Shown: piece after piece, positions 18,693-34,210 of the stretch
How positions within the stretch are numbered: the first letter of the stretch is position 1
Layout of the letters: the number at the start of each line of letters is the position of its first letter
Source of the DNA: a virus
IMG/VR virus record: IMGVR_UViG_3300017763_000026
Coordinates: 1 to 49,517 of that record
DNA: 49,517 bases
Strand: one strand, 5' to 3'
Program-made: the position numbers and the translations under genes
Notes under the pieces: model-generated
The model's database searches: none
What the model was told of the DNA's origin: nothing
The model's input: the letters and a program-made list of their open reading frames with translations, nothing else

Positions 18693-18700
18693 TATAAATA
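18693..18700 (+). promoter_or_regulatory. T4-type late promoter (TATAAATA) for the riboswitch transcript
   Basis: Exact TATAAATA. The predicted start site, about 6 nt downstream, falls at the first base of the aptamer stem at 18707, so the RNA would begin with its P1 helix. Confidence 0.85.
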
Positions 18701-18706
18701 ATATTA

Positions 18707-18823
18707 CGTTCACCATAGAAATATGGCGGAAGTAGGATAACCTGAAAACCTCCTGCAATGCATTGTGGGGATAGCAAGTAAGCAGATATGCTGAACGAGA
18801 CCGAAAGTTACCGAAGGAACGCG
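18707..18823 (+). promoter_or_regulatory. Glutamine-riboswitch-like aptamer (glnA / downstream-peptide type) with expanded P3
   Basis: P1 pairs CGTTC (18707-18711) with GAACG (18817-18821). P2 is CCATA-GAAA-TATGG (18713-18726). The invariant-looking core CGGAAGTAGG follows at 18727-18736, and CCGAAGGAACGCG closes the motif at 18811-18823; both match my memory of the glnA RNA consensus. P3 (TAAC 18738-18741 with GTTA 18807-18810) encloses an unusual ~65-nt insert with its own hairpins. Known members bind L-glutamine and occur in cyanobacteria and cyanophages. Ligand binding here is inferred. Confidence 0.8.
18747..18753 (+). promoter_or_regulatory. Anti-Shine-Dalgarno element inside the riboswitch P3 insert
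   Basis: AACCTCC here is perfectly complementary (7 bp) to GGAGGTT at 18876-18882, the ribosome-binding site of the following peptide gene. It offers a direct route for the RNA fold to block translation. Confidence 0.55.
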
Positions 18824-18885
18824 TTGAGAAGGGTGTACGGCTTAGTTCCGTATGTACGAAATCGAAACGAAAACTGGAGGTTGAT

Positions 18886-30436: not shown

Positions 30437-31120
30437 GTGAATATTAGCAACGAAACGCTGGAGGTATTGAAGAACTTTTCTTCGATTAATCCTAATATAG
30501 TATTTGAACCTGGACAAAAGCTTAAAACTATCTCTGAAGCCAAAAACATTATGGCTATCGCAGAGACAGTTGAAGATTTTCCAGAGTTTGGAATCTATGA
30601 CTTAAACGAATTTTTATCTGTACTTAATTTAATTGATAGTCCAAGTTTAGCATTCGAAACCAATTTGGTTAATATCGAAAATGCTACTACAGGTCCAGGT
30701 AAAACATCAGTAAAGTATTTCTTTTCAGATAAAGAGATTCTTACAACACCGCAAAAAGATATTACAATGCCAGATGCTGAATTTGGTATTGAGCTTACTG
30801 CGGATAAACTATCGCAAATTAGAAAAGCAGCTGCAGTCTTAGGACATTCAGAACTTTCTATTAGTGGTAATGACGGTATAGTTAAATTATCAGTACTTGA
30901 TACTAAAGACTCAAGCGCAAATGTATTTGATATGGATTTAGATGCAGATAATGCTTGTAAAAACGAATTCAATTTTATAATTAACATACCAAATTTGAAG
31001 CTTCTCGAAGGAGATTATTATGTTACGATATCTTCGAAGTTGATCTCACAATGGTCAAATTCGAATTATCCTATAACTTATTTTATCGCTTTAGAGAAAT
31101 CGTCAAACTTTCATGTATAA
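30437..31120 (+). CDS. 45: Sliding clamp gp45
   Basis: Trimeric DNA clamp that gives gp43 processivity and, in T4, activates late transcription with gp55 and gp33. 227 aa against 228 in T4. The start is GTG, supported by GAGGAGG upstream and by coupling to the previous stop. Conserved features include the N-terminal LEVLKNFSSINPNIVFEPGQ and the C-terminal YYVTISSKLISQWSN and YFIALE strands. A late promoter overlaps its stop codon. Confidence 0.95.
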   Translation: MNISNETLEVLKNFSSINPNIVFEPGQKLKTISEAKNIMAIAETVEDFPEFGIYDLNEFLSVLNLIDSPSLAFETNLVNIENATTGPGKTSVKYFFSDKEILTTPQKDITMPDAEFGIELTADKLSQIRKAAAVLGHSELSISGNDGIVKLSVLDTKDSSANVFDMDLDADNACKNEFNFIINIPNLKLLEGDYYVTISSKLISQWSNSNYPITYFIALEKSSNFHV

Positions 31121-31123
31121 ATA
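31116..31123 (+). promoter_or_regulatory. T4-type late promoter (TATAAATA) overlapping gp45 stop
   Basis: Exact TATAAATA that includes the gp45 TAA. It would drive the small acidic protein at 31194 late in infection, inside the early replication cluster. An ATG lies 7 nt downstream. Confidence 0.78.
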
Positions 31124-31130
31124 TAATTAC

Positions 31131-31184
31131 ATGAAAAGAAAAGTGTCGCCAATTATGGGACGCTTAAATTTGTCTAACCTATAG
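31131..31184 (+). CDS. Possible 17-aa leader peptide
   Basis: Short ORF (MKRKVSPIMGRLNLSNL) whose ATG lies at the predicted late transcript start and whose stop is close to the ribosome-binding site of the next gene. It may be chance; it could otherwise couple or attenuate expression of the downstream gene. Confidence 0.2.
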   Translation: MKRKVSPIMGRLNLSNL

Positions 31185-32894: not shown

Positions 32895-33261
32895 ATACGT
32901 AAAAGCAATTAATACCTCAAAGAAAGATATTATGGTTGATGATCTTGCTGAAAAAGAATACCCTGCGTTCTTAGTTAATAGGTCTTTATCTTACTTTCAA
33001 GATACTATACTCTATGCAAATGAAATGAATATACATCATAACATAGATAGTCGCCTTCAGTTTGATTTTTTTATAAATATAATTAAGAAGAAAAATCGAT
33101 TCTCTAAATGGCTTAAGCCAACTGAGATCGATAATATTGAAATAATCAAAGAATATTATGGATATAGCAATGAGAAAGCTAAATCTGTATTAGCATTGTT
33201 CGGAAAGAATGAGATCGATGCATTAAGACAAAGGATTTACAAAGGTGGAAGATCAAAATAA
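32881..33261 (+). CDS. 62: Clamp loader small subunit gp62
   Basis: Non-ATPase subunit of the gp44/62 loader. I choose ATG 32881 (MNPFEYVKAINTSKKDIM) preceded by GGAG; a frame extension upstream lacks such support. Conserved segments: YPAFLVNRSLSYFQDTILYANEMN and LFGKNEIDALRQRIYKGGR. 126 aa, like other marine T4-like phages and shorter than T4 (187 aa). Its end overlaps regA. Confidence 0.92.
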   Translation: MNPFEYVKAINTSKKDIMVDDLAEKEYPAFLVNRSLSYFQDTILYANEMNIHHNIDSRLQFDFFINIIKKKNRFSKWLKPTEIDNIEIIKEYYGYSNEKAKSVLALFGKNEIDALRQRIYKGGRSK

Positions 33262-33676
33262 TAATCAAATAACAGACTGGTCTCCGGCATCGATGCTCGA
33301 GATTACGTTAAACGAACCAGACGATTTTTTAAAAGTAAGAGAAACACTTACTCGTATCGGAGTAGCATCTAGAAAAGATAATAAGCTATTCCAATCGTGT
33401 CATATTCTGCATAAACAAGGCAGATACTTCATAGTACATTTTAAAGAACTCTTTCTATTAGATGGTAAACCTTCTAATCTTATAGAGAATGATGTACAAA
33501 GAAGAAATACAATTGCAACGCTTCTAGGAGATTGGGGTTTAGTCTCTATTCTAAAACCAGAAGCAGCAAAGGACATTGCTCCACTACGTCAGATTAAGGT
33601 TATACCTTATAAAGATAAACAAATGTGGGAACTATGTCCAAAATATAATATTGGTAATAATCAATCTGAAGATTGA
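33245..33676 (+). CDS. regA: Translational repressor RegA
   Basis: RNA-binding repressor of early phage mRNAs. The segment MLEITLNEPDDFLKVRETLTRIG and the block FQSCHILHKQGRYFIVHFKELF closely match T4 RegA, and the end KYNIGN is shared. The frame begins at GTG 33245 inside gp62; an ATG at 33293 aligns with the T4 start but lacks a ribosome-binding site, so the first 16 residues are uncertain. In T4, RegA autoregulates and binds start regions of messages. Confidence 0.93.
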   Translation: MEDQNNNQITDWSPASMLEITLNEPDDFLKVRETLTRIGVASRKDNKLFQSCHILHKQGRYFIVHFKELFLLDGKPSNLIENDVQRRNTIATLLGDWGLVSILKPEAAKDIAPLRQIKVIPYKDKQMWELCPKYNIGNNQSED

Positions 33677-33681
33677 ACTAT

Positions 33682-33689
33682 TATAAATA
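33682..33689 (+). promoter_or_regulatory. T4-type late promoter (TATAAATA) for hsp20
   Basis: Exact TATAAATA just after regA. The predicted start (about 33695) precedes a two-hairpin leader. Confidence 0.85.
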
Positions 33690-33696
33690 TAATTGA

Positions 33697-33746
33697 GAAA
33701 CGTCGGATTGGCCGAGTTTCCAACAACCTTGCTATTTAATAGGAGG
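33697..33746 (+). promoter_or_regulatory. Putative ROSE-like RNA thermometer in the hsp20 leader
   Basis: Hairpin 1: GAAAC-G-TCGG (33697-33706) pairs with CCGA-GTTTC (33712-33720). Hairpin 2 (33727-33746) pairs CCTTGCTAT with ATAGGAGG, burying the whole Shine-Dalgarno AGGAGG. The anti-SD strand contains TTGCT opposite AGGAG with a central G-G apposition, the hallmark I know from ROSE elements of bacterial small heat-shock genes. Weak A-U and G-U pairs suit melting on warming. Confidence 0.65.
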
Positions 33747-33754
33747 AAAATAAA

Positions 33755-34210
33755 ATGGTAAGAAATACTATGAACGTACCTCGTTCACTGTTTATCGGGT
33801 TTGAACCGATACTAAATGAGCTTGAAAGAATCCACTCAGCTGGAAGATCTCAAGATAACTATCCACCTCATAACGTTGTTAAGGTCGATGATGAAAACTT
33901 CATTATTGAGCTCGCGGTTGCAGGATTCTCAGAAGAGAATATTTCTGTAGAGGTTAAAGACGGCATTCTTTTAGTAAAGGCCGAAAAATCTGATAAGGAT
34001 GAGCGTGAATACGCACACAAAGGCATTTCATCCCGCAGATTCGAGAAGTCCTTCCGACTCTCTGAATTTGTAGTTATAGATGGTGCAGACCTTAGAAATG
34101 GAATACTCGTGGTTCATGCCAGAGTTGAAGTTCCTGAGGAAAGGCGTCCAAGGAAGATCGAAATAGGGTCTACTGGGACATCAAAGAAGAAAGAGTTTAT
34201 TGCAGAATAA
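33755..34210 (+). CDS. Small heat-shock protein Hsp20
   Basis: Alpha-crystallin-type chaperone, 151 aa. The core runs from about residue 45 (VVKVDDENFIIELAVAGFSEENISVEV) to ILVVHARVEVPEERRPRKIEI with a C-terminal IEI-type tail motif. Common in marine T4-like phages, where it may aid folding of virion proteins late in infection. It has its own late promoter and a folded leader that hides the ribosome-binding site. C-ending codons point to high expression. Confidence 0.95.
   Translation: MVRNTMNVPRSLFIGFEPILNELERIHSAGRSQDNYPPHNVVKVDDENFIIELAVAGFSEENISVEVKDGILLVKAEKSDKDEREYAHKGISSRRFEKSFRLSEFVVIDGADLRNGILVVHARVEVPEERRPRKIEIGSTGTSKKKEFIAE

Follow-up and report, generated by a model that had tools for sequence, protein, structure and literature searches.

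The leader in front of the hsp20 gene of this T4-like phage is a genuine, strongly conserved two-hairpin RNA element, as judged by sequence comparison across phages, and a bulged purine shared by both of its hairpins appears to track residue 54 of Hsp20, a correspondence that is new. We consider it probable that the leader exerts ROSE-type translational control behind a late promoter, being closed by cold or by free Hsp20 and opened by heat or by unfolded proteins, with the bulged purine read by Hsp20; the parts played by temperature and by Hsp20 are those that we infer.

The hsp20 leader and its locus

The window, i.e., the whole 49.5-kb stretch of viral DNA analysed, has Pfam matches to the gp44 clamp loader, RegA, Hsp20, and the Gp23 capsid protein. 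The sequence-only reading had described an hsp20 gene whose leader starts at a late promoter, folds into two hairpins, and hides AGGAGG behind a TTGCT strand with an apposed G, the ROSE signature. This description was borne out throughout: the gene has its Pfam match (Table 1), the promoter is kept in the 80 nearest relatives, both hairpins are conserved and covarying, and the pairing that hides the Shine-Dalgarno (SD) sequence is conserved across phages.

Table 1. Features of the hsp20 leader and its surroundings in the window
Feature	Position	Strand	Basis
regA (phage translational repressor), neighbour upstream of the leader, outside the element	33245..33676	+	PF01818, 152 bits
T4-type late promoter TATAAATA	33682..33689	+	exact match
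Hairpin 1, 5' strand with single bulged G at 33702	33693..33723	+	fold
Anti-SD strand CCUUGCU with bulged/apposed G 33731, ROSE U(U/C)GCU motif	33727..33733	+	sequence
SD AGGAGG, sequestered by 33727-33733	33741..33746	+	fold and compensatory change
hsp20 (small heat-shock protein, 151 aa)	33755..34210	+	PF00011, 59 bits

More specifically, the core of hairpin 1 (GAAAC[G]UCGG..CCGAGUUUC) occupies positions 33697-33720, and hairpin 2 (33727-33746) is formed by CCUU[G]CUA/UAGGAGG pairing, in which G33731 is unpaired or lies opposite an SD G. The TATAAATA octamer occurs 16 times in the window versus 10.5 expected, so that a promoter match alone is weak; its position 5' of hairpin 1 is, however, unchanged in the 80 nearest relatives.

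The leader is conserved and largely specific to chaperone genes

We gathered hsp20 starts via protein similarity alone and set aside wrongly called internal or upstream starts by inspection. The anti-SD pattern was present at 145 of 147 correctly called phage hsp20 starts, the remaining two (Atu_ph07 and PA5oct) being UUGC variants, versus only 25 of 519 (4.8%) other SD-bearing ORF starts in the same loci; conservation of the hairpin in relatives, on which the sequence-only reading had made its interpretation depend, was thereby upheld. Both features together were found at 7 of the 519 other starts versus 131 hsp20 leaders. Among the 80 nearest relatives, likewise found by protein, all 80 have hairpin 1 behind the promoter, together with TTGCT..AGGAG or something close to it, and UU/UC-G-CU is kept across the protein-found leaders. 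Conversely, a pattern search with the leader only, run over 2.9 M viral contigs, returned 120 stretches, 107 of which were hsp20 by BLAST, and most of the others truncated hsp20 or dnaK. The element is present in cyanophages, methylophage Melnitz, Pelagibacter phage HTVC103P, and the jumbo phages Atu_ph07 and PA5oct; among the named phages inspected, Vibrio phage PWH3a-P1 lacks it and S-TIM5 is equivocal.

This distribution bears on two other readings. An operator for another phage translational repressor, either RegA or the DNA polymerase gp43, is suggested by the gene order, as regA lies directly upstream and a DNA polymerase gene downstream of hsp20. Yet the leader stands at hsp20 without a regA neighbour in S-ShM2, Syn19, and Melnitz, and it also occurs in a SAR11 phage not of the T4 type, where the promoter is a sigma70 one, 5' of dnaK, and in bacterial genomes; this idea is thus largely refuted, and we regard it as highly improbable. 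Even less credible is a 5'-end mRNA-stabilising stem followed by an ordinary SD with a chance TTGCT match. A bulged-G hairpin without TTGCT does follow another late promoter at 31116, but the anti-SD strand is present in nearly all hsp20 leaders versus 4.8% of other ORF starts, and ROSE models align to both hairpins; a chance match is contradicted by the conservation.

Both hairpins covary

In a structure-fitted alignment of 89 elements, we counted 230 double-change cells versus 68 in shuffled alignments, a value reached in none of 500 shuffles, and at most 34 when pairing partners were slid; 97.4% of cells were paired overall and 99.2% in helix 2, and six of eight hairpin 1 pairs showed compensatory changes. 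A survey of the hairpin 1 arms in 142 distinct elements, not so fitted to structure, revealed that all four Watson-Crick pairs are used at most positions and that 140 elements have a bulged G; of the two exceptions, one is a false positive and the other a parse artefact. In hairpin 2, the outer SD-helix pair changes from C-G to U-A in a compensatory manner in one group of relatives (L035). Hairpin 1, being conserved, covarying, and furnished with the same bulged G, deserves more weight than the sequence-only reading gave it. These comparisons demonstrate strong selection on the two-hairpin arrangement, with hairpin 1 as a stable 5' stem, in phages as well as in some marine bacteria.

Kinship with bacterial ROSE elements

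The ROSE signature is defined by a G in the anti-SD strand that is unpaired or apposed to an SD G (PMC11342760, PMC3669281). The phage leader exhibits the corresponding features, i.e., a U(U/C)GCU strand against the SD in the 3' hairpin, a bulged or apposed G, an upstream hairpin, and a location in the 5' UTR of a heat-shock gene. The Rfam model ROSE_3 (RF02523) aligns end to end to the leaders of Melnitz (34.1 bits, E 0.00049) and S-N03 (31.5 bits), scores that are below the cut-off of 43; more generally, the alignments of ROSE_3 and ROSE_2 to leaders of sister phages coincide exactly with the element, including both hairpins, and score below the curated cut-offs, and the window itself yields no Rfam ROSE match at E<=5. 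As the Rfam gathering threshold is not reached, we name the leader ROSE-like rather than a curated Rfam member. The comparison supports "ROSE-like" as the correct name and 33682-33754 as a short two-hairpin ROSE-type element of the ibpA/ROSE_3 kind.

The closest counterpart is ROSE_3 of Pseudomonas ibpA (PMC3669281), which likewise comprises two hairpins followed by a small heat-shock gene and shares with the phage leader both the bulged G of hairpin I, in an AU[G]CC..GGGU context, and the U(U/C)GCU strand against the SD in hairpin II. In contrast to ROSE_3, the phage leader lies behind a late (or sigma70) promoter instead of a sigma32 promoter, is A+T-rich with short loops, is also found at dnaK and groES, has an A-bulge variant, and scores below the Rfam cut-off. 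ROSE_2 (RF01832), from ibpA of E. coli and other enterics, is of the same leader class, but enteric elements have at least three hairpins whereas the phage element has two. The Synechocystis hsp17 thermometer, mentioned in PMC3669281, also precedes a small heat-shock gene; it is a single short hairpin, and cyanophages instead carry the two-hairpin ROSE type.

Predicted folding and temperature response

The 89-nt leader folds better than its shuffled versions (z -3.1; 3 of 200), and hairpin 2 alone has a predicted energy of -3.0 kcal/mol at 37°C and -6.8 kcal/mol at 15°C. The RNAfold optimum for the window at 37°C (-6.1 versus -3.0 kcal/mol) is a different structure, in which UUGCUAUUUU pairs with the start-codon region AAAAUGGUAAG rather than with the SD. 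In this phage clade the anti-SD strand might therefore mainly form a start-codon hairpin instead of a ROSE SD hairpin, in keeping with the constancy of codons 2 and 3 (GTA in 55 of 58 and AGA in 58 of 58 clade members), as later Val codons vary. We consider this improbable, because the leaders of other phages are followed by ATGACT and are unable to form such a hairpin, SD pairing is kept across phages with compensatory changes, A-rich early codons are common anyway, and ViennaRNA omits the G-G pair.

The predicted opening of the SD is sensitive to the end point chosen for the RNA. When 30 coding nt are included, the probability (ViennaRNA) that the window SD is unpaired is 0.05 at 5°C and rises to 0.43 at 42°C, whereas with only 12 coding nt it is ~1 at every temperature. 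Relatives shift little upon heating (median 0.26 to 0.36; shuffled sequences, 0.38 to 0.43), and even for the SD of E. coli ibpA the change is small (0.07 to 0.20). Since the G-G pair lies outside the nearest-neighbour rules applied by ViennaRNA, these folding energies neither support nor refute thermosensing. Rather, we infer thermosensing of the phage leader by analogy, from its kinship with experimentally tested ROSE elements.

The element also precedes dnaK and groES, and its bulged purines match

The two-hairpin element was also found 5' of phage dnaK and groES, and on one contig (L146) dnaK and the next gene, hsp20, have one element each. Among 66 distinct phage dnaK leaders, 48 carry T[TC]GC; the rest carry UUAC or a like variant (UCAC in L576 and L596, A type too), together with a bulged A in hairpin 1. 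The bulged purine is thus the same in both hairpins, G in most phages and A in one freshwater group. In a scan for A-type leaders that fixed only hairpin 2 as A and left hairpin 1 free, hairpin 1 had A in 103 cases and G in one. When hairpin 2 had G, hairpin 1 had G in 268 cases and a nominal A in four, of which three were parse errors and one, the dnaK leader of L499, was real. Only two phages, L499 and L510, are genuinely mixed. Leaders of dnaK and hsp20 on the same contig agree (62 A/A and 46 G/G; L499 is mixed), and groES leaders obey the same rule, the freshwater group having A in dnaK, hsp20, and groES leaders together.

On a DnaK tree, bulge type requires three to six changes by parsimony. 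Several independent switches were nevertheless rejected as a conclusion: a single A-type clade is compatible with the tree (p-AU 0.75), and consequently only one G-to-A switch can safely be claimed. A search for bacterial A-type elements with a model built on A-bulge elements (R3) matched 215 of 398 genomes, with none of 20 loci near a chaperone gene, and the model is therefore uninformative.

Bulge type corresponds to residue 54 of Hsp20

E. coli IbpA binds its own ROSE 5' UTR and represses itself; R93 tolerates no replacement, position 34 (Y34) requires an aromatic residue, and positions 97 and 98 (R97/K98) require basic ones, both the K98 alanine mutant and K93 being inactive (PMC10474464). 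Alignment of the window Hsp20 to E. coli IbpA places Y36, A56, R94, and K98 at IbpA Y34, A54, R93, and R97, respectively, and S99 at K98. Across phage Hsp20 proteins, position 34 is aromatic in 207 of 207, R93 is present in 191 of 207 (15 phages have K93 instead), and R/K97 in 199 of 207. Phage Hsp20 hence shares the aromatic residue 34 and, for the most part, the R93 that IbpA needs to bind its own 5' UTR (PMC10474464); in contrast to E. coli IbpA, it mostly has a non-basic residue at the K98 position, and its binding to the phage leader is putative.

Position 54 (IbpA numbering) is the only IbpA-aligned column that separates the bulge types perfectly: Ala54 goes with a G bulge in 250 of 250 cases, and Thr54 with an A bulge in 62 of 62. 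The other residue at this position is Ser, in 7 of 257 proteins with G-type leaders and 2 of 64 with A-type leaders, the latter two belonging to L499 and L510, the only mixed-bulge phages. Cellular Hsp20 copies have Ala54 in 24 of 24. The accessible part of PMC10474464 makes no mention of position 54. D94, also considered as a specificity residue, was dropped, being present in 15 of 39 G-type proteins too. A single-sequence AlphaFold model of Hsp20 was unusable (mean pLDDT 45).

The correspondence points to Hsp20 as the reader of the RNA, as in IbpA autoregulation, and the chaperone itself may bind the leader; Hsp20 would then be an input in addition to temperature or in its place, one that the sequence-only reading had not considered. 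With a single switch, a coincidence on one branch is possible; against this, no other column behaves in the same way, and the intermediates have Ser. A bolder proposal, which we hold tentatively and at slightly less than even confidence, is that phage Hsp20 represses in trans a viral regulon of chaperone genes (hsp20, dnaK, groES) and reads the bulged purine of both hairpins, Ala or Thr at residue 54 setting G or A and Ser tolerating both. If true, the same code would account for recognition of ROSE leaders by bacterial IbpA. The correlation bears directly on what a small heat-shock protein recognises in its mRNA.

The main rival is a purely intrinsic RNA thermometer, in which hairpin 2 melts without any protein, bulge identity only tunes the melting temperature, and the joint G-to-A change reflects adaptation of the whole set to host temperature. 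Pseudomonas ROSE, with the same two-hairpin layout, does melt in vitro without protein, and its hairpin II alone suffices (PMC3669281); a concerted bulge change could also mirror a temperature niche. However, hairpin 1 leaves the SD uncovered and is heat-stable in Pseudomonas (PMC3669281), yet its bulge switches with that of hairpin 2; moreover, bulge type matches one protein residue exactly, and the computed melting is weak. We therefore judge a protein-free thermometer unlikely, though less so than the other alternatives.

Five phages (L088, L102, L125, L136, and L176) encode Hsp20 with Ser54 and Lys93 together and have ordinary G-bulge leaders. As K93 is inactive in E. coli IbpA, they may have a compensated reader.

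Bacterial relatives and a probable promoter exchange

A model built on phage leaders (R2) picks out hsp20 leaders both in SAR116 and SAR202 records and in alphaproteobacterial genomes (18 of 289); most of these genomes measure 1.2-1.6 Mb, a size typical of SAR11, and we take them to be SAR11-like. A sigma32-like promoter stands 5' of several of the bacterial leaders, and two rpoH-like (sigma32) genes of small-genome alphaproteobacteria (L400 and L401) have a ROSE-like anti-SD strand and a bulged hairpin in front. The element is thus common to phages and marine bacteria, but phages would drive their copy with a late promoter, HTVC103P-like ones with a sigma70-type TTGACA-N17-TATAAT. Of the host heat-shock circuit, viruses would in this way retain the translational half and replace the transcriptional half by their own late promoter.

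A model for chaperone control during infection

In the Hsp20-read ROSE-type control that we favour, the late promoter would supply hsp20 mRNA at a late stage of infection. When the temperature is low or free Hsp20 plentiful, hairpin 2 would be closed and little Hsp20 made; heat would loosen hairpin 2 directly, and unfolded proteins would draw Hsp20 off the RNA, raising translation on demand. The bulged purine of both hairpins would be the probable mark read by Hsp20, with residue 54 deciding between G and A, and dnaK and groES would come under this control too in some phages. During infection, the leader could make chaperone output respond to both heat and damaged proteins.

ROSE thermometers are known from bacteria, whereas the phage thermometers named in the open literature are lambda cIII, SPbeta blyA (fourU), and a gut-phage sigma70 leader (fourU) (PMC11182007, PMC10586365), blyA being described as only the second (PMC11182007). 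These are likewise RNA thermometers in phage mRNAs, but none is described in those two papers as ROSE or as lying 5' of a chaperone gene, and our search, confined to the open literature, turned up neither a ROSE element nor a chaperone thermometer from a phage. A ROSE-type leader is near-universal on hsp20 of T4-like marine phages, and hsp20 belongs to the core genes of cyanophages (PMC3037559).

Additional RNA structures

Just 5' of TATAAATA, the window has an extra palindrome (33660-33673, CAATC TGAA GATTG); in L009 and relatives its sequence varies (e.g., CAAC GAAA GTTG) while the hairpin is kept. In the MVR clade, the start-codon region (33755-33766) is able to pair with 33728-33737. A-type dnaK leaders (L433, L436, L439, and others) have an extra perfect hairpin of the GGGCATAGAGCCC type, placed after hairpin 1 and before the anti-SD strand; this hairpin occurs in the freshwater A-bulge group and in some G-type relatives.

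At 31116-31184 of the window, a second late promoter is followed by a bulged-G hairpin (AGTGTCGCCAATTATGGGACGCT), which lacks a TTGCT strand and precedes a small gene that starts MADQNETAAAEAPG; this hairpin covaries in L004 and has similar counterparts in L022 and L143. Hairpin 1 may be a module used at other places too. Finally, a glutamine riboswitch (RF01739, 44.7 bits, above the cut-off) lies at 18693-18825, directly 3' of a TATAAATA late promoter and downstream of the gp23 capsid gene; glutamine riboswitches have been reported in related marine phages (PMC9004378).
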